From NCBI GenBank assembly GCA_016790285.1, contig JAEUPJ010000086.1, positions 1 through 50,766 of the forward strand: a stretch of DNA of 50,766 nucleotides, given 5' to 3'. Positions 3,859-29,731 of this stretch are shown here, piece after piece. Made by a program: the position numbers and the translations under genes. A model generated the notes under the pieces. That model was not told where the DNA came from, ran no database searches, and saw only the letters and a program-made list of their open reading frames with translations. Within the stretch, counting starts at the first letter, position 1; every line of letters starts with the position of its first letter. The DNA comes from Roseateles sp. Its GTDB lineage: Bacteria; Pseudomonadota; Gammaproteobacteria; Burkholderiales; Burkholderiaceae_C.

Positions 3859-5450
3859 GTGAGGAGTTGCCGGCGGGCTGGCAGAGCGCCGCTCTGCGCG
3901 ACATTGCCGAAATCGTGGGCGGCGTGACCAAGGACACCAAGAAGTCCGCCGGGTCGGGCTTTCGTGAGGTGCCTTACCTGCGGGTCGCCAACGTTCAGCG
4001 CGGGCGACTTGATCTGACCGAGGTGAAGGTGATTGCGGCGTCTGAGGCCGATATCCAGAAACTGAACCTCTTACCGGGCGACATCTTGTTGAACGAAGGG
4101 GGCGATCGGGACAAGCTCGGTCGGGGTTGGATCTGGCAAGGCCAGCTCTCCGAGTGCATCCATCAGAACCATGTCTTTCGAGCACGTTTGCTGAGCCGAG
4201 AGATCGACCCGGTCTACGTCGCGCACTTCACCAATTCCGTGGCGCAGACGTACTTTGCCGCGCATGGCTCGCAGACCACCAACCTCGCCTCCATCAGCCT
4301 AACCAAACTGGGCTCGCTGCCCGTCCCGCTCCCTCCTGCAGCCGAGCAATCCCGCATCGTTGCCAAACTAGAAGAACTGCTGTCCGACCTCGATGCCGGC
4401 GTGGCGGAGCTGAAGGCGGCGCAGGCCAAGGTGCAGCAATACCGCCAGTCCCTGCTCAAGGCCGCCGTGGAGGGCTCGCTGACCCAAGCCTGGCGCGAGG
4501 CCCACCCGGCGCCCGAGGAAACCGGTGCTGACCTGCTCGCCCGCATCCTGCGCGAACGCCGCGCCCGCTGGGAAGCCCAACAACTCGCCAAGTTCGAGGC
4601 GCAGGGCAAGCAGCCGCCGAAAGGCTGGCAGGCCAAATACGTCGAACCCGGCAACCCGGGAATTGACGCTGCGCCAGCATTGCCTACCAGCTGGGCATGG
4701 GCAACTGTTGGTCAACTCCTCGCGGCGCTGACAAGTGGTTCTCGCGATTGGGCGCCGTACTACGACCGTGGAAGCTGCGTGTTCGTCATGGCGCAGAACG
4801 TCAGACCTTGGCGCCCGAACTTTGCGTTTCGCCAGTTGGTTGATCCGCCTGCGAACGATAGGGATCGGGCGCGCTCGCAGATCGCAATGGACGACTTGCT
4901 TGTGACCATCGTTGGCGCGAACACCGGACAAAGCTGCCGTGTGCCAGAGGCACTTGATCACCACTTCGTTTGTCAAAGCGTGGCTTTGCTTCGGCCCGTC
5001 GACCCATCCATGTCGGAATACCTGAATGCAGTGCTCAACAGCGAGGGCCATGGACAACGCCAGTTCCGAGCAATGAACTACGGCGCGGGGCGGCCGCATC
5101 TGAGCTTTGAGCAGATCGAGTCAGTTCTTGTGCCGCTGCCACCGCTCGCCGAGCAGGTGGAGATTCTTTCGTGCGTCACTGAGAAGCTGGCGTCGATTGA
5201 TGAGCAGGTAATGCAACTTGAGCGGTTGCTCCACTTGGTCAATGCCCAACGCCAAAACCTCCTCCGCGCCGCCTTCGCCGGCCAGCTCGTCCCGCAGGAC
5301 CCGGCCGACGAGCCCGCGGCCGAGTTGTTGGCTCGCATCCGCGCCGATCGGGCCACGCGCGAGGCTGCCAGGACGCCGCGCGCGAAGCCGGTGCGTGAGG
5401 CCAAGAGTCTCAACAGCGTCGAGACAATTCCTGTGGGGGCCGTCGAATGA
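3855..5450 (+). CDS. hsdS: Type I restriction-modification specificity subunit S
   Basis: This 531-residue protein gives the complex its DNA target. Two target-recognition domains, at roughly 5-165 and 280-440, are each followed by a conserved segment (PLPPAAEQSRIVAKLEELL and PLPPLAEQVEILSCV) that starts a helical spacer. The tail QRQNLLRAAFAGQLVPQDPA is the usual HsdS C-terminus. The GTG start sits inside the hsdR stop (GTGA) and the stop overlaps the next ATG (ATGA). The second recognition domain (about 4690-5210) is visibly richer in A+T than the helical parts, as expected when recognition domains are exchanged between strains. A 38-bp piece of its 3' end (5247-5284) recurs at 6571-6608. 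Confidence 0.95.
   Translation: MSEELPAGWQSAALRDIAEIVGGVTKDTKKSAGSGFREVPYLRVANVQRGRLDLTEVKVIAASEADIQKLNLLPGDILLNEGGDRDKLGRGWIWQGQLSECIHQNHVFRARLLSREIDPVYVAHFTNSVAQTYFAAHGSQTTNLASISLTKLGSLPVPLPPAAEQSRIVAKLEELLSDLDAGVAELKAAQAKVQQYRQSLLKAAVEGSLTQAWREAHPAPEETGADLLARILRERRARWEAQQLAKFEAQGKQPPKGWQAKYVEPGNPGIDAAPALPTSWAWATVGQLLAALTSGSRDWAPYYDRGSCVFVMAQNVRPWRPNFAFRQLVDPPANDRDRARSQIAMDDLLVTIVGANTGQSCRVPEALDHHFVCQSVALLRPVDPSMSEYLNAVLNSEGHGQRQFRAMNYGAGRPHLSFEQIESVLVPLPPLAEQVEILSCVTEKLASIDEQVMQLERLLHLVNAQRQNLLRAAFAGQLVPQDPADEPAAELLARIRADRATREAARTPRAKPVREAKSLNSVETIPVGAVE
5247..5284 (+). repeat. HsdS-tail direct repeat, copy 1 (in hsdS)
   Basis: This is a 38-bp segment in the hsdS 3' end. It matches 6571-6608 at 35 of 38 positions, in direct orientation and in the same reading frame. 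The two copies bracket yhcG. Confidence 0.8.
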
Positions 5451-6562
5451 GCCTGGCCAGCCTGCCATCTGGCTACCTCCAACTGCTGGCCGAGGTGAAG
5501 GGCCGCATCCAGGCGGCGCAGAGCCGTGCGGTGCTGGCGGTCAATGCCGAGATGATGGCCCTGTACTGGCAGGTGGGGCAGATGCTGCACGCGCGCCAGG
5601 CCGAGGCGGGTTGGGGCGCGGCGGTCATTCCCCGGCTGGCGCTGGACATCGCGAATGCGCTGCCCGAGGTGAAGGGTTTCTCGGAGCGCAACCTCAAGCG
5701 CATGCTGGCCTTCTACCGGGCCTATGCCGAGGACCCGGCATTTGTGCCACAGGCTGTGGCACCAACCGGCCCGGCCGCCCAAGTGCCACAGGCTGTGGCA
5801 CCGGCGCAGGCCGCGCTGGTGGCACCCATGCTGGCGCTGCCGTGGGGCCATCATGTGCTGCTGCTGGAGCGGGTGAAGCCGGCCGATGAGCGCCGCTGGT
5901 ACATGGCCCAGGCCGTCGCCCAGGGCTGGAGCCGCAGCGTGCTGCAGGCCCAGATTGCCGGCGCGGCGCACCTGCGCCAGGGGGCGCTGGTGAACAACTT
6001 TGCCACCCGGCTGCCGGCGCCTCAGTCCGAGCTGGTGCAGCAGGCGCTGAAAGACCCATATGTCTTCGACTTCCTGACGCTGGCGCCGACCTTCCACGAG
6101 CGCGAGCTGGAGGTGGGCCTGGTGGCCCACCTTGAAAAGTTCCTGCTCGAACTGGGCCAGGGCTTTGCATTCGTGGGCCGGCAGCACCTGCTGACGGTGG
6201 GCGAGAACGAGTTCTACGTCGACCTGCTCTTCTATCACCTGAAGCTGCGCGCCTTCGTGGTGATCGAGCTCAAGCGCGGCGACTTCAAGCCCGAGTACGC
6301 GGGCAAGCTGAACTTCTACTGCAATGTGGTGGACGACACCCTGCGCCACCCGCAGGACGCCCCCACCATCGGGCTGATGTTGTGCCAGGGCCAGGACAAG
6401 GTGCTGGCCGAGTACGCGCTGCGCGGCATCGACAAGCCCATCGGCATTGCCAGCTACGAGCTCACGCGGGCGCTGCCGGAGTCGCTGCAGAGCGCGCTGC
6501 CGAGCATCGAGATGCTGGAGGCGGAGTTGGGGGCGGGTTCGGCAGCACCTGAGGCGCCATGA
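5447..6562 (+). CDS. yhcG: DUF1016/YhcG-family PDDEXK nuclease within the RM operon
   Basis: The 371-residue protein belongs to the YhcG (DUF1016) family, which pairs a helical N-terminal domain with a PD-(D/E)xK nuclease fold. The N-terminal domain is about residues 5-95 (YWQVGQML, FSERNLKRMLAFYR). The nuclease core has E220, D259 (FYVDLLFYH) and E274-L-K276 (VVIELKRGDFKPEYAGKL). The linker at 99-128 is longer than usual and contains VPQAVAP twice, encoded by two identical palindromic 19-mers. Members often sit inside type I RM loci; their role there is not settled. The gene is coupled to hsdS and to the next small ORF by ATGA overlaps at both ends, so it is part of the operon rather than a passenger with its own promoter. 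Confidence 0.9.
   Translation: MSLASLPSGYLQLLAEVKGRIQAAQSRAVLAVNAEMMALYWQVGQMLHARQAEAGWGAAVIPRLALDIANALPEVKGFSERNLKRMLAFYRAYAEDPAFVPQAVAPTGPAAQVPQAVAPAQAALVAPMLALPWGHHVLLLERVKPADERRWYMAQAVAQGWSRSVLQAQIAGAAHLRQGALVNNFATRLPAPQSELVQQALKDPYVFDFLTLAPTFHERELEVGLVAHLEKFLLELGQGFAFVGRQHLLTVGENEFYVDLLFYHLKLRAFVVIELKRGDFKPEYAGKLNFYCNVVDDTLRHPQDAPTIGLMLCQGQDKVLAEYALRGIDKPIGIASYELTRALPESLQSALPSIEMLEAELGAGSAAPEAP
5744..5801 (+). repeat. Two palindromic 19-mers in the yhcG linker
   Basis: The 19-mer GTGCCACAGGCTGTGGCAC occurs at 5744-5762 and 5783-5801. Each copy is itself an inverted repeat (7-bp arms, 5-bp loop). Both are in frame and encode VPQAVAP. A further half (GTGGCAC) lies at about 5819. They fall in the linker between the DUF1016 N-terminal domain and the nuclease, where added residues are likely to be tolerated. 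Confidence 0.85.
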
Positions 6563-22009: not shown

Positions 22010-22334
22010 CTACTTCACCGAGCGCAACGACGGCCTGGGCGAGCGGCTGCAGGCCGCGTTCCCTTCGCTCAAGCTGGTCAAGGCCTTCAACACCGTGGGT
22101 GCGGCCTTCTTCGTGCGCCCGACCTTCGCGCAGGGCCGCGGCTCGATGTTCATCGCCGGCAACGATGCCGATGCCAAGGCCGCCGTGGCCGGCCTGATCG
22201 AGGCCTGGGGCTGGCAGCCCTATGACGTCGGCCGCATCGAGGGTGCGCGCGTCACCGAGCCGCTGTGCCAGCTGTGGTGCCTGCCGGGCTTCCTGCGCAA
22301 CGACTGGGCGCACGCGTTCCAGGTCATTGCCTGA
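22002..22334 (+). pseudogene. C-terminal half of an NAD(P)-binding F420-reductase-like protein
   Basis: The frame reads VLRYFTERNDGLGERLQAAF then LKLVKAFNTVGAAFFVRPTF, GSMFIAGNDADAKAAVAGLI and EPLCQLWCLPGFLRNDWAHA to a stop at 22334. This is the second half of the NADPH-dependent F420-reductase-like family of about 210-220 residues. The Rossmann N-terminus with the glycine-rich loop is absent, and upstream the frame runs into unrelated and antisense LysR sequence. No plausible start codon lies at the domain edge. It is best read as a truncated, non-functional remnant. Confidence 0.7.
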
Positions 22335-22362
22335 CGGCCCCCGGCGCGCACAAGACCCCCCT

Positions 22363-22380
22363 ATGTGCGCTAGCGAACAT
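22363..22380. promoter_or_regulatory. Crp/Fnr-type palindrome upstream of crp1 (site 1)
   Basis: ATGTGCGCTAGCGAACAT is an 18-bp palindrome with one mismatched pair. The 14-bp core at 22365-22378 ends 57 bases before the crp1 ATG. TAGAGT begins 22 bases after the core and could be the -10 box. The GTG-N8-CAC-like geometry matches Crp-family sites; one arm reads GAAC instead of GCAC. Probably an autoregulatory site. Confidence 0.7.
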
Positions 22381-22435
22381 CCTTTCGCGCTCAGCGTGGC
22401 TAGAGTCGGAACCTCTAACTTGGCCTTCTAGCGAC

Positions 22436-23170
22436 ATGACCCTACCCAGCCCTGCTGCCGACCCGCGCAGCAACCTTCTGCTTGCCGCGCTGCCGGAGGG
22501 CGAGTGGGCGCAGTGGGAGGGCCAGCTGGAGTACGTGCCGTTGAAGCTCGGCCAGGTGCTGTACGAATCGGGCCGGCCCCAGAGCCACGTGTACTTCCCC
22601 ACCACGGCCATCGTCTCGCTGCTGTACGTGCTCGAAGACGGCGCGTCGGCCGAGATCGCCGTCGTCGGCTACGAGGGCGTGGTGGGCGTGGCGCTCTTCA
22701 TGGGCGGCGAGACCACGCCGAGCCGCGCCGTGGTGCAGAGCGCCGGCGGCGCCTTCCGGCTGCGTGCGGCGGCCATCAAGGTCGAGTTCAACCGCTACGG
22801 CGTGGGCATGCAGGTACTGCTGCGCTACACCCAGGCGCTGCTCACGCAGATGGCCCAGACGGCGGTGTGCAACCGCCACCACCTGCTGGAGCAGCAGCTG
22901 TGCCGCTGGCTGCTGTTGAGCCTGGACCGCATCGTGGGCGACGAGCTCGTGATGACGCAGGAGCTCATCGCCAACATGCTGGGCGTGCGCCGCGAGGGCG
23001 TGACCGAAGCCGCGCTCAAGCTGCAAAAGCTCGGCCTCATCGACTACGCCCGCGGCCACATCACCGTGGTGGACCGCCTCGGCCTGGAGCAGCGCAGCTG
23101 CGAATGCTACGCCGTGGTCAAGCAGGAATACGACCGCCTGCTCAAGCCGCTGCGGCCTGCCCACGGCTGA
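22436..23170 (+). CDS. Crp/Fnr-family transcriptional regulator (crp1)
   Basis: The 244-residue protein has a cyclic-nucleotide-binding-type beta roll (YVPLKLGQVLYESGRPQSHV, AEIAVVGYEGVVGVALFMGG), a long dimer helix (LLRYTQALLTQMAQTAVCNR) and a winged helix-turn-helix (VMTQELIANMLGVRREGVTE). No FNR-type cysteine cluster is visible at the N-terminus. The recognition helix has Arg-Glu at the positions of R180-E181 in CRP, which contact the GTG of the operator; the third contact (R185) is replaced by Glu. The ATG at 22436 is chosen because the longer frame is non-coding in appearance and a palindrome lies 57 bases upstream. It may be the regulator of the six similar palindromes in this region (inference). 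The effector is unknown. Confidence 0.9.
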   Translation: MTLPSPAADPRSNLLLAALPEGEWAQWEGQLEYVPLKLGQVLYESGRPQSHVYFPTTAIVSLLYVLEDGASAEIAVVGYEGVVGVALFMGGETTPSRAVVQSAGGAFRLRAAAIKVEFNRYGVGMQVLLRYTQALLTQMAQTAVCNRHHLLEQQLCRWLLLSLDRIVGDELVMTQELIANMLGVRREGVTEAALKLQKLGLIDYARGHITVVDRLGLEQRSCECYAVVKQEYDRLLKPLRPAHG

Positions 23171-23225
23171 CGGCCTGGGTGGGGTGGCGCACGGTGAGCG
23201 CCTTGCATGACCCGCAGACTCGGGC

Positions 23226-23948
23226 ATGACCTCCAACCAGCTGCTCGCTCACCTGCCCGCCACGGAGCGCCGGCGCCTGCTGGCCCAGGGGTTGCAGGTC
23301 CCGATGCAAAGCGGCGAGCAGCTCGCGACGCAGGACCAGCCGGCCGCCGCCTTGATCTTCCCGCTTGCGGGCTTCGTGTCCCTCGTGACACCGCTGGACG
23401 CGCACCCGCTGCTGCAGGTGGGCATGGTGGGCTGCGAGGGCGTGCTGGGCGCGCAGCTGCTGCTGGGCGTGCCCACCAGCCCCGTGACCGCGTCGGTGCA
23501 GCAGGGCGGCATGGCCTGGCGCGTGCCGGCCGCGGCGCTGCGGCGCCAGCTCGACGCCAGCCCGGCCTTGCGCCGCCTGCTGACGCGTTATCTCGTCGTA
23601 CAGCTGCGTGACGCGGCCACCGCGGCCGCGTGCCTGCACTTCCACCCCCTGCAGGCGCGCCTGGCGCGCTGGCTGCTGATGGGGCAGGACCGCGCCGGCG
23701 GGGAGGGCTTCGCCATCACTCAGCAGCACCTCGCCCCGCTGTTGGGCGTGCGGCGCGTGGGCGTGACCGTCGCCGCCGGCCGCCTGCAGCGTGCCGCGCT
23801 CATCCGCTACCACCGGGGCTGGATCACCGTCACCGACCGCCCGGGCCTGGAGGCCGCCGCCTGCAGCTGCTATGCCCAGGGCACGGCCAACTACCAGCTG
23901 GGGATGAAATTCCCGCCGTTCGAGGCCGAGGGTGCGCCAACGCACTGA
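23226..23948 (+). CDS. Second Crp/Fnr-like regulator, diverged (crp2)
   Basis: The 240-residue protein aligns along its length with the neighbour upstream: beta roll (VPMQSGEQLATQDQPAAALI, GMVGCEGVLGAQLLLG), dimer helix and helix-turn-helix (AITQQHLAPLLGVRRVGVTV). In the recognition helix the Glu of crp1 is replaced by Val (RRVGV against RREGV), so its DNA preference probably differs. No copy of the palindrome lies directly upstream. It follows crp1 after 55 bases and may be cotranscribed. It is plausibly a duplicate that took on another target or acts as a modulator; both are inference. Confidence 0.82.
   Translation: MTSNQLLAHLPATERRRLLAQGLQVPMQSGEQLATQDQPAAALIFPLAGFVSLVTPLDAHPLLQVGMVGCEGVLGAQLLLGVPTSPVTASVQQGGMAWRVPAAALRRQLDASPALRRLLTRYLVVQLRDAATAAACLHFHPLQARLARWLLMGQDRAGGEGFAITQQHLAPLLGVRRVGVTVAAGRLQRAALIRYHRGWITVTDRPGLEAAACSCYAQGTANYQLGMKFPPFEAEGAPTH
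23932..23945. promoter_or_regulatory. Crp/Fnr-type palindrome upstream of the GGDEF gene (site 2)
   Basis: GTGCGCCAACGCAC overlaps the last codons of crp2 and ends 37 bases before the diguanylate cyclase ATG, closer than at the other sites. Both 5-bp arms are perfect. A possible -10 (TAATCG) begins 25 bases after it. Confidence 0.5.
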
Positions 23949-23982
23949 TGCGCCGGGGCAGCTTGCGCGGTAATCGGGTGCC

Positions 23983-24642
23983 ATGGCCCATGCCCAGCCC
24001 CCCGCGCTCGTGCGGTCCCACGCGGCCCACGCGCCCGCCACCCCGGTCGACACCGACCTGGCCCGCCAGTTGCGCCACGCCCTGATCCTGCTGGCGCTGG
24101 CGCAGCAGCGCTGCGAGCAGCTGCAGACCGAGCTGCGTGATGTCCGGCTGCGCGAGCGCCGCCACCTTCACCGCGCCGAGCACGACGACCTCACGGGGCT
24201 GCTCAACCGACAGGCCTTTCGCGAGCAGGCGCAAGCCGCCCTGGCCGCAGGCGGTGAGGTCGCCGTACTGATGCTGGACCTGGACGGCTTCAAGGCGGTC
24301 AACGACACCCTCGGCCACGCGGCCGGGGACGAAGTGCTGCGCATCACCGCCGCGCGCATGAACCACGCGCTGCGCAGCGGCGATGTGCTGGGCCGCCTGG
24401 GAGGTGACGAGTTCGCCTGCGTGCTTCGCAATGCCGGCGGCGCGGTGCACGTGGCGACGCTGGCCGCCAAGCTCGCGGCCTCCATCGCCTTGCCCATGCA
24501 GGTATGCGGCCAGCGCGTGGACCTGCACGCCAGCGTGGGCATCGCCCTCGCCCCGCAGGACGGCGACTGCATCGACACCCTGCTCACCGGCGCCGACGCG
24601 GCGATGTACCGCGCCAAGCGCGCCCGGCAATCCGGTGGTTAG
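23983..24642 (+). CDS. Diguanylate cyclase (GGDEF protein)
   Basis: The 219-residue soluble protein makes the second messenger cyclic di-GMP from GTP. After a short N-terminal coiled coil (about 25-65) comes a complete GGDEF domain: DDLTGLLNRQAF at 68-79, LMLDLDGFKAVND at 96-108 and GGDEF at 140-144. A product-inhibition site RxxD (RSGD, 131-134) lies five residues before the signature. No membrane or sensor domain is visible beyond the coiled coil. The ATG has no clear ribosome site, and an in-frame GTG at 24010 is an alternative that would put the upstream palindrome at a more usual distance. A hairpin follows the stop. Confidence 0.93.
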   Translation: MAHAQPPALVRSHAAHAPATPVDTDLARQLRHALILLALAQQRCEQLQTELRDVRLRERRHLHRAEHDDLTGLLNRQAFREQAQAALAAGGEVAVLMLDLDGFKAVNDTLGHAAGDEVLRITAARMNHALRSGDVLGRLGGDEFACVLRNAGGAVHVATLAAKLAASIALPMQVCGQRVDLHASVGIALAPQDGDCIDTLLTGADAAMYRAKRARQSGG

Positions 24643-24660
24643 GCGCCCCGGGGGGCGCCT
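24641..24660. terminator. Hairpin between the convergent GGDEF and OmpA-like genes
   Basis: AGGCGCCCC and GGGGCGCCT form a 9-bp stem with a 2-base loop, starting in the GGDEF stop codon and ending 4 bases before the stop of the convergent gene. T-tracts on either side are weak, so it may be a shared but inefficient terminator. Confidence 0.55.
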
Positions 24661-24664
24661 TCGT

Positions 24665-25858
24665 TCAGCGGGTGGCGCTGACCTGGATGTCGACCCGGCG
24701 GTCGGGCTGCAGGCAGCTGATGACGCGGCGGGACGCCGCACCCTTGCAGTCGCCCGCATGGGTCACGGGGTCGGCCTCGCCGCGGCCCTCGGTCGTGATG
24801 CGGCTGGCGTCCAGCCCCGTCGCGCCGACGAGGTAGCCCTTGACCGCGTCGGCCCGCTGCATCGACAGCGCCTGGTTGTAGGCCGTGCTGCCCAGCCGGT
24901 CGGTGTGGCCGGTGACGGCGATGGTGTCCAGGCGTGAGCCCGCGAGGCTCTGCGCGAAGGTGTCCAGCGCGGACTTGCCGTCGGGCTGCAGCCGGGCGCT
25001 GTCGAAGCCGAACAGGGACTCGGCGGTGAAGCTGACGCGCCGCATCGGCGCGGGCGCCGGCGGCGGTGCCACAACGGCCACGACCGGCGCAGCAACGGGC
25101 GGCGGGGGCATCGGCGCGTCTACCATCACCGGAGCCGGGGGCACGTAGGCCGCGGGTGCCGCCGCGCGGCGCATCGGCGTGGGCGAGGCGCCCAGCGGCA
25201 TCACCAGGCTCACCGAATACACGACCGCACGCACGGTGCCGCCCAGCGCATCGGCAAAGCGCGAGCTGTCGGCCTCGGCGCGCATGAGGAATTGCGGCGT
25301 CAGCGCGTACTGCAGGCCCAGGCCGTAGCGGCTGTCGTTGTCGTTGGCCCGGCCGATGCGGTCAGCCTGCGTCACGGCGCCCGTGCCCGACCAGTCCGCC
25401 CGTGTGCGGGCCTTCTGGTAGCCCACGCGGGCCAGGGCCGACAGGTTCTCGGTGACGGGCAGCTGGCCCACCAGGTCCAGGTTGACCCCGGTCACGCGCA
25501 ACCGGCCATCGAGCTGGCCGGCGGGTGTGGTGGTGGCCTGGTAGGAGAAGTGCCCGAGCCGGAAGTAGCCGAGCTCCATGCCGAGATAGCGGTTGAACTG
25601 GTAGCCGACGAAGGCCTTGTAGGCGATGTCGCGCTCGTCCTTGCCGGTGCTGGTGATGGCCAGACCGGTGCCGGTCAGCACCTGGCTGCCCAGACGTGGC
25701 GCGTCCAGGTTGGGCCGGGCCTGCCCCATGCCCAGGCCCAGGTAGAGGTAGGGGGCTTCCGGGGTTTGTGACTGTGCCTGGGTGCACAGCAGGGCCAGCA
25801 CGGCAGCGCTGATCACATGCAGCGCAGGCGAGCGGGAAGAACAGAGGGCGTGGCGCAT
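24665..25858 (-). CDS. OmpA-family outer membrane protein with beta-barrel
   Basis: The 397-residue protein has a signal peptide (ALHVISAAVLALLCTQAQSQ), an N-terminal eight-stranded-type barrel (YLYLGLGMGQARPNLD, YKAFVGYQFNRYLGMELGYF, RYGLGLQYALTPQFLMRAEA), a Pro/Ala-rich linker and a C-terminal OmpA peptidoglycan-binding domain (LFGFDSARLQPDGKSALDTF, VTGHTDRLGSTAYNQALSMQ, RADAVKGYL). It should tie the outer membrane to the cell wall. Start: the ATG at 25858 stands just before the signal peptide; the in-frame ATG at 25894 is an alternative. The last residues before the stop (CKGAASRRVISCLQPDRRVD) contain two Cys that could form a disulfide. It is divergent from a BON gene, sharing a 166-base gap with one palindrome. 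Confidence 0.9.
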   Translation of the reverse strand: MRHALCSSRSPALHVISAAVLALLCTQAQSQTPEAPYLYLGLGMGQARPNLDAPRLGSQVLTGTGLAITSTGKDERDIAYKAFVGYQFNRYLGMELGYFRLGHFSYQATTTPAGQLDGRLRVTGVNLDLVGQLPVTENLSALARVGYQKARTRADWSGTGAVTQADRIGRANDNDSRYGLGLQYALTPQFLMRAEADSSRFADALGGTVRAVVYSVSLVMPLGASPTPMRRAAAPAAYVPPAPVMVDAPMPPPPVAAPVVAVVAPPPAPAPMRRVSFTAESLFGFDSARLQPDGKSALDTFAQSLAGSRLDTIAVTGHTDRLGSTAYNQALSMQRADAVKGYLVGATGLDASRITTEGRGEADPVTHAGDCKGAASRRVISCLQPDRRVDIQVSATR

Positions 25859-25954
25859 GGGGAGCTTTCGGGGAGTGAAGGGATGCGTGTTCATCGCGGT
25901 TGTCGCCCATCGCGGCCGGGGCGTCTGTACGGCTGAGCACCGCCTGGCCGCTGC

Positions 25955-25968
25955 GTGCCCTGCCGCAC
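25955..25968. promoter_or_regulatory. Crp/Fnr-type palindrome between ompA-like and bon1 (site 3)
   Basis: GTGCCCTGCCGCAC has one arm mismatch. It ends 56 bases before the BON ATG at 26025, and CAGGCT begins 22 bases after it. It lies 60 bases from the alternative start (25894) of the divergent OmpA-like gene, so it could serve both. Confidence 0.5.
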
Positions 25969-26024
25969 CGACCGGCCCGGTTCGCGCGGGCAGGCTGGCA
26001 TGCCCGTCACCCCCGAATCGCCGC

Positions 26025-26675
26025 ATGAAGACCGATGCCCAACTGCAACAGGACGTGATGGCCGAACTCCGGTGGGACCCGGCGCTGCATGCCGCTCAGA
26101 TCGGCGTGCAGGTGCTCGACGGTGTCGTGACGCTGACGGGCGAGGTCAGCAGCCATCTCGAGAAGGTCGACGCGGAACATGCGGCCCAGCGCGTCGGCGG
26201 CATGCGCACGCTGGCCTCGGACATGACGGTCAAGCTGTCGGCCTTCGGCCGGCGCACCGATGCCGACATCGCCGGCTCCGCGGTTCATGCCCTGGCCTGG
26301 ACGGAGGGCCTGCCCGAGGGCGCCATCCAGGTGCTGGTGGAGAACGGCTGGCTGGTGCTGACCGGCAGCGTGCCCTGGCAGTACCAGCGCGAGGCGGCTG
26401 CCGAGAGCGTGCGCTGCCTCTGGGGTGTCACCGGTGTGAGCAACCAGATCGCCATCGCGCCGCCGCAGGCCGGTGGTGTGAGCAAGGCGGGCATCGAGGC
26501 CGCCCTCGACCGCCGAGCCCCGAGCACTCAGCATCGGGTGCAGGTCGAGGTCAGCGGCGGCGACGTGACCCTGTCGGGCAGCGTGCGCAGCTGGGCCGAC
26601 CGCGACCTCGCCCTGCATGCGGCCTGGGGCAGCCCCGGGGTGCGCCGCGTCGTCAACCACATCGCCATCGTTTGA
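26025..26675 (+). CDS. BON-domain protein 1
   Basis: The 216-residue protein consists of three BON domains (about 3-70, 75-145 and 150-216), each with the alternating hydrophobic pattern VQVLDGVVTLTGEVSS / IQVLVENGWLVLTGSVPWQY / VQVEVSGGDVTLSGSVRSWA. BON domains bind phospholipid or other envelope ligands and occur in osmotic and general stress proteins such as OsmY. Unlike OsmY, no signal peptide is visible, so it may be cytoplasmic. The ATG is chosen because the conserved MKTD-QLQ start is shared with the second copy downstream; the longer frame upstream is antisense to the porin gene. Confidence 0.88.
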   Translation: MKTDAQLQQDVMAELRWDPALHAAQIGVQVLDGVVTLTGEVSSHLEKVDAEHAAQRVGGMRTLASDMTVKLSAFGRRTDADIAGSAVHALAWTEGLPEGAIQVLVENGWLVLTGSVPWQYQREAAAESVRCLWGVTGVSNQIAIAPPQAGGVSKAGIEAALDRRAPSTQHRVQVEVSGGDVTLSGSVRSWADRDLALHAAWGSPGVRRVVNHIAIV

Positions 26676-26688
26676 AGACGCACCGACG

Positions 26689-26702
26689 GTGCGCTGCCGC
26701 AC
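26689..26702. promoter_or_regulatory. Crp/Fnr-type palindrome upstream of bon2 (site 4)
   Basis: GTGCGCTGCCGCAC has perfect 5-bp arms and ends 55 bases before the bon2 ATG. CAAGCT, a possible weak -10, begins 23 bases after it. It lies in the 82-base gap between the two BON genes, so bon2 probably has its own promoter. Confidence 0.6.
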
Positions 26703-26757
26703 GGTGTGAACGCCCGGCCGGGCGCCAAGCTGAAGGCCCATCCACAGGAGTGCCCCC

Positions 26758-27411
26758 ATGAAGACCGACCTGCAGTTGCAATCGGATGTCCTGGCCGAGC
26801 TGCAATGGGACCCGCCCGTGCATGCCGCCCGGATCGGTGTGGACGTGAAGGACGGCGTCGTCACGCTGGCCGGCGAACTGGACAGCGCGGCCCAGAAGTG
26901 GCACGCCTTGCGCGCGGCGCAGCGCGTGGCGGGCGTGCAGGCGCTGGCCAGTGCGCTGACGGTCCGGCTGCCGGGCCCGAGCCCGCACAGCGACGCCGAC
27001 ATCGCGGCCGCCGTGGCCCATCGGCTGGGCTGGCACGCGGCGCTGGAGAACACCAGCCTGGGCGTGCTGGTGGATGGCGGTTGGGTGAGCCTGACCGGCG
27101 CCGTGCGCTGGCCCTACCAGCGCCAGGCCGCCGTGGCCTGCGTCCTGCCGTTGCGTGGCGTCATGGGCGTGCACGACAACATCCGGCTGCTGCCGGGTTC
27201 GTCGCCGGGTGTCGTGATGTCGGGGCTCAGGGCGGCCCTGGAGCGCGCGTCCGGCGTGGATGCGCGGCTCATCCAGGCGCTGGTGGCGGGCCATGACGTC
27301 ACGCTCACCGGCACCGTGCCGGACTGGGCGGGCCGGCAGTCGGCGCTGGCCGCAGCGTGGGCGATGCCAGGCGTCCGGCAGGTCCAGGACCGCATGACGC
27401 TTGCGAACTGA
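26758..27411 (+). CDS. BON-domain protein 2
   Basis: The 217-residue protein is a tandem paralogue of the upstream BON protein: the same three-domain layout, the same length and a shared start (MKTDLQLQSDVLAELQWDPP against MKTDAQLQQDVMAELRWDPA). Its third domain reads IQALVAGHDVTLTGTVPDWA. A good ribosome site (CAGGAG) precedes the ATG. It is followed after 8 bases by a small coiled-coil gene and so forms at least a two-gene unit. Role in envelope or general stress is inferred from the family. Confidence 0.88.
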   Translation: MKTDLQLQSDVLAELQWDPPVHAARIGVDVKDGVVTLAGELDSAAQKWHALRAAQRVAGVQALASALTVRLPGPSPHSDADIAAAVAHRLGWHAALENTSLGVLVDGGWVSLTGAVRWPYQRQAAVACVLPLRGVMGVHDNIRLLPGSSPGVVMSGLRAALERASGVDARLIQALVAGHDVTLTGTVPDWAGRQSALAAAWAMPGVRQVQDRMTLAN

Positions 27412-27419
27412 GCCCCGCC

Positions 27420-27704
27420 ATGACCGAACGAGACACCTACATCGAGAACATGTTGCTCGAACTCGACACGCTCAACGACCAGCTGAGCGCGCTGGAGGCC
27501 CGCGCGGCGCACGCCCACCAGGAGGTGCGGCAGGCCTGCAAAGGCGAACTCGCGCGGCTGCGTGTGCTGTCCGACGAAGCGCTGCAGAAGTGGGACGCCA
27601 TGAAGGCATCGGGCGAAGCGTCCTGGCACCAGTGGGTTCCCGACATGGACCGCACGCACGACGCCTTCTTCCGCGCCTTTCACCACCTCAAGGCGCGCTT
27701 GTGA
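27420..27704 (+). CDS. Small coiled-coil protein, sll1863-like stress protein
   Basis: The 94-residue protein begins MTERDTYIENMLLELDTLND and is almost wholly helical, with a heptad-like pattern through residue 75 and a Trp-rich turn (ASWHQWVPDMDRTHDAF). The opening and overall plan resemble the sll1863-type stress-response proteins often found beside BON and PRC-barrel genes; the resemblance is by eye only. It starts 8 bases after bon2 and is probably cotranscribed. No catalytic residues can be suggested. Confidence 0.6.
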   Translation: MTERDTYIENMLLELDTLNDQLSALEARAAHAHQEVRQACKGELARLRVLSDEALQKWDAMKASGEASWHQWVPDMDRTHDAFFRAFHHLKARL

Positions 27705-27714
27705 GCCGTGTGGC

Positions 27715-27728
27715 GTGCGCTGGCGCAC
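27715..27728. promoter_or_regulatory. Crp/Fnr-type palindrome upstream of the 50-aa gene (site 5)
   Basis: GTGCGCTGGCGCAC has perfect arms and is symmetric apart from one central pair. TATGGT, a possible -10, begins 22 bases after it, the same spacing as at site 1. The start codon is 85 bases away, leaving a longer leader. Confidence 0.6.
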
Positions 27729-27813
27729 CGTCAAGGCGGCCCGTCATGCCTATGGTCGGCCAGGCCCGGTGCGGAGATCCCTCCGGGCCGGAACGGCAAC
27801 CCAGGAGCACCCC

Positions 27814-27966
27814 ATGAAGAAATCGATGAAAGCCAAGCGGCCGCCCGCGCAGCCGGCCACTCACCCGCCGGTGCTGGACGCCAAGCCCGAGGCCACCAAG
27901 GCGTCGGCCAGCACGGGCGAACGCCACAAGCCGGGGGGCCGCAGCGGGCCCAAGGGCTCGCGGTGA
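27814..27966 (+). CDS. 50-residue basic, disordered protein
   Basis: This very small Lys/Pro/Ala-rich protein starts MKKSMKAKRPPAQPATHPPV and ends GERHKPGGRSGPKGSR. It has no hydrophobic segment. Support comes from a strong ribosome site (CAGGAG, about 7 bases before the ATG) and from an upstream palindrome and -10-like hexamer. Its charge would suit nucleic-acid binding, but that is a guess. Function unknown. Confidence 0.6.
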   Translation: MKKSMKAKRPPAQPATHPPVLDAKPEATKASASTGERHKPGGRSGPKGSR

Positions 27967-28038
27967 GCCGCCCGGGCGCGCGCGTTGCGCCGGCCGGCGC
28001 GCCCGACCGGGTCAATCCCGCGCACCCAGCTCCGGTGC

Positions 28039-28052
28039 GTGCGCCACCGCAC
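28039..28052. promoter_or_regulatory. Crp/Fnr-type palindrome upstream of the kinase/VIT operon (site 6)
   Basis: GTGCGCCACCGCAC has perfect 5-bp arms and ends 56 bases before the kinase ATG. GACGCT begins 22 bases after it; TACATC at 28080 is an alternative -10. Confidence 0.55.
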
Positions 28053-28108
28053 TGACCGGTCGGCGCCCGCCGGGGACGCTACATCCGTCGTCACGCAGGA
28101 GCCACCTC

Positions 28109-29020
28109 ATGGACAAGCCTTCGACCCCTCTGCCATCGACCGAGTTTCTGACGGGCCTGTTCCAGGCCGTCTCGCCCCCGGCCCCACCGCGCGGCCGGCC
28201 GGGCCACTGGGCCCCGTGGGGCGGCAAGCCGGCCGACCCACCCGCACCGGACGCCCGCTTGGCCTCGGTGCTCTGGCAGCAGGCGGTGCATGACATCCGG
28301 GGCAAGCTGGGCGTGGTGACCAACCTCACGACCCTGTTGCAGCGGCCCGCCACCGAGCAGCACCACGCGGCCCTGCTCGCGATGCTGGACCGCAACGTGG
28401 CAAGCCTGGGCCGGTTGCTGGACGGCGTGGCCGACCTCGCCCGCCTCGATGCCGCGCCGGAGCTGCCGGTGCTGCAGCGCGTCAACGCGGCCGCGGTGCT
28501 GCAGCGCGTGTGTGACGGCGTGACCGCCCTGGCCGAGTCACGCGGCCTGGGCGTGGAGTTCCGCGGCCCGGCCGTCCTGCTCGCCGAGACCGACCCGCTG
28601 ATGCTCGAACGCATCGCACAGAACCTGATGCTCAACGCCGTGCGCTACACGCGCGCCACGGCCGTCGTGCTGAGCTGCGCCTCATCTGACGGCGCGGCCT
28701 TGGGGCGCTGGTGCTTCGAGGTCCATGACGCGGCGAGCGCAGCGGGCGGCGGCGCCCTGCCGCGCTCGTCGCTGGTGCTGCAGTTGCCCCCCGGTGGCCA
28801 GCCCCTGCCGGCCGGCGAGGGCATCGGGTTGTCGATCGTGGCCCGCTTGAGCCAGGCGCTGGGCGGGGCGGTGCAGACATCGTGCACCGTCGACGGCCGG
28901 GTGACGCGCATCAGCCTGCCGCGGCGCCCGGACGCCGCGCAGGACGCCCTGGTGCGCTGCCCGGCCTCGCCGGCCTTGCACCCACGGCCCATCGTGGCCG
29001 CGGCACGCACGCATGCCTGA
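28109..29020 (+). CDS. Small soluble histidine kinase
   Basis: The 303-residue protein has a short Pro-rich N-terminus, a dimerisation helix with a histidine box QAVHDIRGKLGVVTNL (H61), an N box QNLMLNAVRYT and a G box GEGIGLSIVARLSQALGG. There is no membrane helix and no room for a PAS or GAF sensor, so it probably receives its input through another protein. The middle of the ATPase domain is degenerate (the DxGxG box is not clear: EVHDAASAAGGGALP), so activity is uncertain. No response regulator is adjacent. A ribosome site (CAGGAG) precedes the ATG, and a VIT-type carrier gene follows after 9 bases. Confidence 0.78.
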   Translation: MDKPSTPLPSTEFLTGLFQAVSPPAPPRGRPGHWAPWGGKPADPPAPDARLASVLWQQAVHDIRGKLGVVTNLTTLLQRPATEQHHAALLAMLDRNVASLGRLLDGVADLARLDAAPELPVLQRVNAAAVLQRVCDGVTALAESRGLGVEFRGPAVLLAETDPLMLERIAQNLMLNAVRYTRATAVVLSCASSDGAALGRWCFEVHDAASAAGGGALPRSSLVLQLPPGGQPLPAGEGIGLSIVARLSQALGGAVQTSCTVDGRVTRISLPRRPDAAQDALVRCPASPALHPRPIVAAARTHA

Positions 29021-29029
29021 GCGGCCACC

Positions 29030-29731
29030 ATGAGGCCCGCGGGCCGCCACGTCGAGGGGCACCGTACCGAGCGCATCGGCTGGCTGCGCGCGGCCGTGCT
29101 GGGCGCCAACGACGGCATCGTCTCCACGGCGAGCCTGCTCGTCGGGGTCGCCGCGGCGGGGGCCGGCCCGGAGAGCCTGCTCGTGACGGGCGTGGCGGGC
29201 CTGATGGCGGGGGCGATGTCGATGGCGGCGGGCGAGTACGTGTCGGTTCAGGCCCAGGCCGATACCGAAGGCGCCGACATGGACCGCGAGCGCGCCGAAC
29301 TGGCCGCGAGCCCGGCCGCGGAGCTGGAAGAGCTGACGCGCATCTACGTCCGGCGCGGGCTCGATGCACGCCTGGCCGGCCAGGTCGCCAGCCAGCTGAC
29401 GGCCCGCGACGCGCTGGCCACCCATGCGCGCGACGAACTCGGCATCTCCGACGTGCACGCGGCCCGCCCCGTGCAGGCCGCGCTGACGTCCGCCGCGAGC
29501 TTTGCCGCCGGCGCGCTGCTGCCCCTGGCCGTCGCGATGGCTGCCCCAGGCGCGGGCCTGATCCCGTGGGTCAGCGGCACCTCGCTGCTCTTCCTGGCCC
29601 TGCTGGGCGCGCTGGCGGCCTGGGTCGGGGGCGCGAGCGCCCTGATCGGCGGCTGGCGCGTGGCCTTCTGGGGGGCCCTGGCCATGGGCATCACCGCGGC
29701 CGTGGGCGCGCTGTTCGGCACCGTCGCCTGA
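29030..29731 (+). CDS. VIT1/CCC1-family divalent metal transporter
   Basis: The 233-residue inner-membrane protein has the family start ERIGWLRAAVLGANDGIVST, a helix with GLMAGAMSMAAGEYVSVQAQ, a cytoplasmic stretch rich in Glu (about 75-140, DRERAELAASPAAELEELTR) and three further helices to the end. VIT1/CCC1 proteins move Fe2+ or Mn2+ out of the cytosol, with the Glu-rich part binding metal. It is cotranscribed with the small kinase (9-base gap) and followed by a strong bidirectional terminator. The substrate is inferred from the family. Confidence 0.88.
   Translation: MRPAGRHVEGHRTERIGWLRAAVLGANDGIVSTASLLVGVAAAGAGPESLLVTGVAGLMAGAMSMAAGEYVSVQAQADTEGADMDRERAELAASPAAELEELTRIYVRRGLDARLAGQVASQLTARDALATHARDELGISDVHAARPVQAALTSAASFAAGALLPLAVAMAAPGAGLIPWVSGTSLLFLALLGALAAWVGGASALIGGWRVAFWGALAMGITAAVGALFGTVA

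Follow-up and report, generated by a model that had tools for sequence, protein, structure and literature searches.

A group of short palindromes was analysed in a stretch of Roseateles sp. DNA of 50,766 nucleotides (GenBank assembly GCA_016790285.1, contig JAEUPJ010000086.1), hereafter the window. The palindromes lie between positions 22,363 and 28,052, around crp1, a gene for a regulator of the Crp/Fnr family. They are very probably operators of Crp1, which would be an orphan Crp/Fnr class II activator of its own gene and of the surrounding island of stress and envelope genes. Sequence comparison indicates that the regulon is real and conserved, that it belongs to a Crp/Fnr protein and has a class II layout, and that in its own genome it is mostly local; its kind is known, and the regulon itself appears to be new. 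The evidence is computational and consists of the sites themselves, their conservation in relatives, a fixed spacing to a -10 hexamer, and co-occurrence with crp1.

Conservation was analysed in 80 named loci with crp1 homologues of 72-86% identity, the best 80 of at least 587. They include Roseateles, Pelomonas, Rubrivivax, Variovorax, Polaromonas, Acidovorax, and a few Gammaproteobacteria. Perfect gapped palindromes with 5-bp halves and spacers of 0-10 were counted de novo, with the window excluded and masked-N runs, which ranked higher, ignored. GTGCG-N4-CGCAC was the top palindrome, with 65 intergenic versus 6 genic copies in 46 of the 80 loci, and the next, TGTGC-N6-GCACA (26 intergenic versus 0 genic), represents that same site without a shift in register. 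Gene calling relied on a simple codon-usage caller, which places 92% of the window bases in genes and fails in part of the lower-GC relatives; no genes were called in L039, L068, and L084. Loci without gene calls raise the intergenic share artificially, and the count was therefore repeated on the 52 loci with at least 75% of bases in called genes, and GTGCG-N4-CGCAC was again first (48 versus 6, 34 of the 52 loci).

A position weight matrix (PWM) was built from 90 sites of other genomes, excluding the window; the named congener loci L019 and L020 were among the training loci. The full operator consensus in relatives is 22 bp long, GTCTGTGCGCYRGCGCACAGAC. Matches scoring at least 11 were 332 intergenic versus 23 genic in all 80 loci, and 243 versus 13 outside the kind of site used for training. 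The 52 well-called loci, where 13% of bases are intergenic, gave 228 versus 18 and 170 versus 10, respectively, and the enrichment became stronger in them. A count that needs no gene calls was made on the 350 nt upstream of crp1: a match of at least 11 was found in 66 of 79 loci, 32 of them with the hexamer described below, and in 1 of 79 reversed stretches. L033 was left out for having too little upstream sequence, and duplicate contexts were removed before the counts.

An earlier reading of the window without database searches (the first-pass annotation) had listed six 14-mers, sites 1, 3, and 5 to 8 below, as targets of one Crp/Fnr-type regulator. All six were recovered letter for letter at their coordinates, as were the distances from site end to start codon (57, 37, 56, 55, 85, and 56 nt). 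Five of the six lie between genes, and the one at 23932 overlaps the last codons of crp2, whose stop ends at 23948. The PWM ranks them first to sixth in the 50.8 kb window with scores of 24.6 to 14.1, followed by 23179 (11.9), 25927 (11.7), and a genic match at 1616 (10.1). The top 8 matches all fall within 22300-28100, while 200 column-permuted matrices placed 0.93 there on average and never more than 4. Two weaker sites, one preceding crp2 (23179) and one preceding the divergent ompA (25927), were absent from the first-pass annotation. The features of the cluster are given below, with hexamer offsets counted from the site centre.

22365..22378, + strand: site 1, GTGCGCTAGCGAAC, before crp1; TAGAGT at +29; PWM 24.6, the best in the window
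22401..22406, + strand: predicted -10 of the crp1 promoter, the hexamer TAGAGT
22436..23170, + strand: crp1, Crp/Fnr-family regulator of 244 aa (cNMP_binding and HTH_Crp_2)
23179..23192, + strand: site 2, GTGGGGTGGCGCAC, before crp2; CAGACT at 23215-23220 (+29); PWM 11.9
23226..23948, + strand: crp2, crp1 paralogue with 40% identity (HTH_Crp_2 match)
23932..23945, + strand: site 3, GTGCGCCAACGCAC, over the crp2 end and 37 nt before dgc; PWM 15.4
23983..24642, + strand: dgc, diguanylate cyclase (GGDEF)
24665..25858, - strand: ompA, OmpA-family outer membrane protein; start codon picked from the sequence (gene caller: 25816)
25927..25940, - strand: site 4, GTACGGCTGAGCAC on the + strand, 68 nt before ompA; PWM 11.7
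25955..25968, + strand: site 5, GTGCCCTGCCGCAC, before bon1; CAGGCT at 25991-25996 (+29); PWM 14.1
26025..26675, + strand: bon1, BON-domain protein, OsmY-like, with 3 matched stretches
26689..26702, + strand: site 6, GTGCGCTGCCGCAC, before bon2; CAAGCT at 26726-26731 (+30); PWM 17.2
26758..27411, + strand: bon2, BON-domain protein with 3 matched stretches
27420..27704, + strand: sll1863-family stress response protein, 8 nt after bon2
27715..27728, + strand: site 7, GTGCGCTGGCGCAC, before the 50-aa gene; TATGGT at 27751-27756 (+29); PWM 16.7
27814..27966, + strand: 50-aa protein with no assigned family; homologues in three congeners
28039..28052, + strand: site 8, GTGCGCCACCGCAC, before the kinase and VIT genes; GACGCT at 28075-28080 (+29); PWM 20.8
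28109..29020, + strand: sensor histidine kinase
29030..29731, + strand: VIT1-family protein, 9 nt after the kinase

The loose consensus GTGCGCNNNCGCAC with up to 2 mismatches is not enriched in the window (71 matches versus 130 expected from shuffles). As the loose pattern is no commoner than chance, the sites were tested by position and conservation. The signal is in the exactness, position, and conservation of the sites, not in the loose consensus.

To obtain promoter geometry, sites of the relatives facing one gene were aligned on their centre, with sites between divergent genes dropped and the window excluded. The base composition around them has one further feature, A at +30 and T at +34. 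The pattern.A...T starts at +29 in 111 of 186 sites and at +30 in 25, against a mean of 5.4 at other offsets and 14 of 183 upstream of the site; among the named loci with good gene calls, 69 of 111 sites have it at +29, against a mean of 2.9 elsewhere. Five of the eight window sites fit +29 exactly (TAGAGT, CAGACT, CAGGCT, TATGGT, and GACGCT), and a sixth, CAAGCT, is at +30. Class II sites of CRP are centred at -41.5. If the hexamer is read as a -10 box, transcription would start about 41 bases downstream of the site centre and the site would probably be centred near -41.5, where class II activators bind; on these predicted starts, a site centred near -41.5 is combined with a -10 at a fixed distance. 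Within window 23215-23227, the predicted start of the crp2 transcript nearly coincides with the crp2 ATG, which suggests that the crp2 message is leaderless or that the crp2 start is misplaced.

The composite of site core, gap, and hexamer was searched for in 120 genomes of the host's family, with crp1 counted as present at a match of E 1e-30. Proteins similar to Crp1 are common in this family (52 of the 120 genomes). The composite was found in 35 of the 52 genomes with crp1 (86 matches) versus 14 of the 68 without it (18 matches; Fisher p = 2.9e-7), and without the own genus in 33 of 50 genomes with crp1 (p = 1.2e-6). The reversed composite pattern showed no difference in the same 120 genomes (14/52 versus 16/68, p = 0.68). 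By gene calls, a site precedes 66 of 83 crp1-like genes and 36 of 53 crp2-like genes.

Within the genus, 11 islands were compared, two of which are probably one locus. Their gene order and content vary, and none has fewer than two intergenic sites followed by the hexamer. Not all genomes of the genus have crp1: 8 of the 19 others gave no match. Site and hexamer occur together in 7 of ten aligned crp1 upstream regions, the window included. Congeners carry higher-scoring sites before crp2 than the window does. The 50-aa protein is basic and has no match in Pfam or NCBIfam; its promoter and gene are conserved in three congeners (L191, L192, and L196), and site and hexamer are present in all four loci compared.

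Crp1 matches PF00027 with 29.1 bits, just above the cut-off of 27.5, and PF13545 with 48.4 bits (cut-off 27). Its AlphaFold2 model (mean pLDDT 92.1) has a CRP-like fold, and the best Foldseek rows were CRP, GlxR, Cmr, NtcA, and FNR, with identity of at most 22% among the 50 rows listed; searching solved structures by sequence yielded two weak matches. Both hallmarks of the Crp/Fnr superfamily are present: a sensor domain joined to a Crp-type winged helix, and a palindromic operator of the GTG-N8-CAC shape. The N-terminal Fe-S cysteine cluster of the FNR subfamily is absent from Crp1, whose only cysteines are at 145, 156, 222, and 224. Among 90 homologues with at least 58% identity, no substitution was seen at C145, H149, C222, or C224; H148 is present in 89 and C156 in 87. 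Because the four invariant residues are of the ligand type, a thiol- or metal-based signal would be a first guess for Crp1.

The recognition helix residues R185-R186-E187 are conserved in 90 of the 90 homologues and E191 in 83. The alignment puts R186, E187, and E191 at the positions of R180, E181, and R185 of CRP, with the R-E pair kept. In the portion of PMC1274295 used here, a correlation is reported between R180 of CRP and the first G of TGTG, and this G is present in the Crp1 motif. The proposal that a Crp/Fnr-type regulator reads these sites, including one at its own promoter, is thus well supported by the de novo motif, the matches upstream of crp1, the co-occurrence, and the R-E helix.

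Several observations weigh against Crp1 as the reader of these sites. The same portion of PMC1274295 ties E181 to A at the next half-site position; Crp1 keeps E187, yet its motif has C there, which E191 at the position of CRP R185 may account for. Composite matches are present in the 14 genomes without a crp1 match mentioned above, and G095 carries four of them with no crp1 match at 1e-30, which may count against the link or reflect a missed crp1 gene. Without the hexamer, the exact palindrome fails to tell genomes that have crp1 from those that lack it, and eight genomes without a crp1 match (G003-G006, G014, and G017-G019) carry 1-3 exact palindromes each. A site with the hexamer at +29 or +30 precedes only 38 of the 83 crp1-like genes and 34 of the 53 crp2-like genes. 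No match of at least 11 was found within 350 nt upstream of 13 of the 79 crp1 homologues, and in the genus the upstream site is missing in 2 of 11 loci (L197 and L198); the L020 region retains the site without the hexamer, L198 has the hexamer and a site that has decayed, and L197 has neither. The window sites 23932 and 25927 have no hexamer at +28 to +30, so that for the diguanylate cyclase, a target in the first-pass annotation, the site was found and the -10 at the right distance was not. Relatedness makes the compared sequences non-independent, and part of the PWM testing was done on loci that had also served for training; L019 and L194 seem to be a single locus, and some loci share one genome. 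Finally, a crp2-like gene lies within 1.5 kb of 46 of the 83 crp1-like genes, and its product could be the binder or a partner.

The last point leads to the alternative that Crp2, or a mixed dimer of Crp1 and Crp2, reads many of the sites, with Crp1 on an R-E half and Crp2 on an R-V half, and with a non-G at position 3 in one half marking a mixed-dimer site. Crp2 matches HTH_Crp_2, has no Pfam cNMP_binding match at E 0.001, and carries V at the position of Crp1 E187. Among 46 aligned Crp2-like proteins, V replaces E187 in 40, C145, H149, C222, and C224 are kept in all 46, and C156 is replaced by A in all 46. The pair thus differs by E versus V at a DNA-contact residue while sharing the invariant cysteines, and this suggests partners with different specificity. 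The frequent proximity of the two genes and the V substitution favour this alternative, as do 247 site-gene pairs with the hexamer, in which a non-G at position 3 is present in one half in 141, in none in 79, and in both in 27. However, the excess of one-sided sites can stem from the PWM score cut-off, and no crp2-like gene was called near 37 of the 83 crp1-like genes, a number to which contig ends and missed gene calls contribute. A specificity change at an E181-type residue is reported in the portion of PMC1274295 used here for CRP mutants in general terms, not for Crp2. Reading of many sites by Crp2 or mixed dimers is considered rather unlikely.

In the preferred reading, with Crp1 as class II activator, a Crp1 dimer would read the T-GTGCG half-sites of the 22-bp operator. 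Active Crp1, centred about 41.5 bp before the start and over the place of the -35 box, would recruit RNA polymerase to a weak -10. It would thereby activate its own gene, crp2, and the surrounding island, with the BON/OsmY-like proteins, ompA, the sll1863-type gene, the 50-aa protein, and the kinase with VIT. The same position could serve a repressor, with Crp1 at -41.5 blocking the polymerase and the island being induced when Crp1 leaves; a site over -35 can repress, and autoregulated regulators often repress themselves. However, no separate -35-like peak is present between site and hexamer, the sole further fixed element is the -10 at class II distance, and this layout is that of activator-dependent promoters, which makes repression quite improbable.

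Target genes in the relatives were defined as non-crp genes with a site and the hexamer; 143 were collected, and 137 remained after removal of genes above 2400 nt or below 75 nt and of genes at a contig end. The control consisted of 137 neighbouring genes that have an upstream gap but lack a site, sampled randomly from 378, and its top 25 families were listed. The targets contain BON 16, CsbD 10, GGDEF 8, DUF4398 8, PRC 5, DUF3309 4, FA_hydroxylase 4, and HATPase_c 4, while the control contains BON 2, DUF3309 2, and HATPase_c 3. CsbD, GGDEF, DUF4398, and PRC are outside the 25 control families listed, and thus have at most 2 members each. BON, CsbD, PRC, DUF4398, and GGDEF are over-represented among the targets in relatives; kinases (HATPase_c) are not enriched, and DUF3309 hardly is. 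CsbD, BON, and PRC-barrel proteins are treated as stress proteins, and CsbD is placed under sigma B, in the portion of PMC7660261 used here. Targets in stress families, as expected of a general stress regulon, were thus found (BON 16/137 versus 2/137; CsbD 10/137 versus at most 2/137), and a stress role of Crp1 would be consistent with them. The candidate targets in the window are bon1, bon2 with the sll1863-family gene, the 50-aa protein, the kinase with VIT, ompA, dgc, crp1, and crp2.

The own genome (5.88 Mb, 107 contigs) contains GTGCGCYNNCGCAC at 15 distinct places; 4 are in the cluster, and 10 of the other 11 are inside called genes. With up to one mismatch to GTGCGCYRGCGCAC, 52 places were counted and 50 listed. 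Five of those listed are in the cluster (4 intergenic and 1 on the crp2 end), and 44 of the 45 listed outside it are inside called genes, with 1 not. A genome-wide regulon at one mismatch was rejected on this count. The predicted regulon is mostly local in its own genome, which fits the first-pass title of a local regulon, with near-perfect sites before genes almost confined to the cluster. The first-pass annotation had stated that its proposal would fall if good matches were as frequent inside genes as upstream of them or if related genomes lacked the sites. Conservation beside crp1 homologues was present, whereas upstream enrichment across the genome was not, good matches outside the cluster being nearly all genic. 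That the 14-mers are functionless GC-rich palindromes of a word-rich genome is scarcely credible, even with the loose pattern common in the window (though below the shuffles) and most listed near-perfect matches elsewhere genic, as the intergenic bias, conservation, fixed hexamer spacing, and co-occurrence with crp1 contradict it.

Two further places in the own genome were observed. TGTNCGNYRNCGNACA occurs only twice in the 5.88 Mb, once before crp1 and once within a called gene on contig C80, about 25 nt past its start. A weaker distal candidate, CTCTGTGAGGGTGCGCACAGAC (PWM 16.4), is at 4603-4624 of locus L160 (own genome C8:274000-284000), its centre 80 nt before a PEP-CTERM gene, and has no.A...T at +29 or +30. 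A third, truncated Crp paralogue adjoins this PEP-CTERM gene (L160 features 4603-4624 and 5540-5935), and similar genes that have sites were also called in L114 and L123.

A wider reading is less likely and is put forward tentatively: Crp1 and Crp2 may together act as a thiol- or metal-sensing switch that is widespread in Burkholderiales, binding asymmetric sites as mixed dimers. The pair would collect stress and envelope genes around itself in shuffled islands with one class II promoter per gene. If this is true, Crp1-Crp2 would do locally what sigma-factor general stress responses do elsewhere. For the Crp1-like group, the analysis provides a precise predicted operator of 22 bp, the geometry of its promoters, and a list of targets in which stress and envelope families predominate. 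The signal and role of Crp1 become directly testable, and the matrix serves to find the regulon in related genomes.

Searches among the open-licence papers of PubMed Central gave no description of a Crp1-like regulon. HcpR, DNR, and NnrR, in the portion of PMC1274295 used here, are similar in that Crp/Fnr motifs were obtained by comparative genomics, with R180 and E181 tied to bases, and in having no FNR-type cysteine motif. Their motifs are different (wTGTGAnnnnnnTCACAw, wyTTGACnnnnGTCAArw, and GTAACnnnnGTTAC), and their targets are nitrogen-oxide and redox genes. The FNR-like regulon of Ca. Accumulibacter likewise has a Crp/Fnr-type motif before beta-proteobacterial genes, whereas the sole GTGCGC string in the portion of PMC6446978 used here is in a primer.

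Class II promoters of Escherichia coli CRP share with the Crp1 system the 22-bp palindrome with GTG-N8-CAC arms, the CRP-like fold as modelled, the distance of about 41.5 bp to the predicted start, and the R-E pair. The E. coli CRP site is TGTGA-N6-TCACA. The Crp1 half-site is TGTGCG instead of TGTGA, and E191 is at the position of CRP R185. The half-sites of CRP proper were not seen in the Crp1 operator, where C is at the A position in 96% of the 90 PWM sites, which were chosen by a C-bearing core. The CRP regulon is global, whereas that of Crp1 is mostly a local island in its own genome. General stress regulons are under sigma B, RpoS, and EcfG. They include similar families, CsbD, BON/OsmY, and PRC-barrel proteins, but the Crp1 system would reach these families through a Crp/Fnr activator and its operator rather than through a sigma factor.

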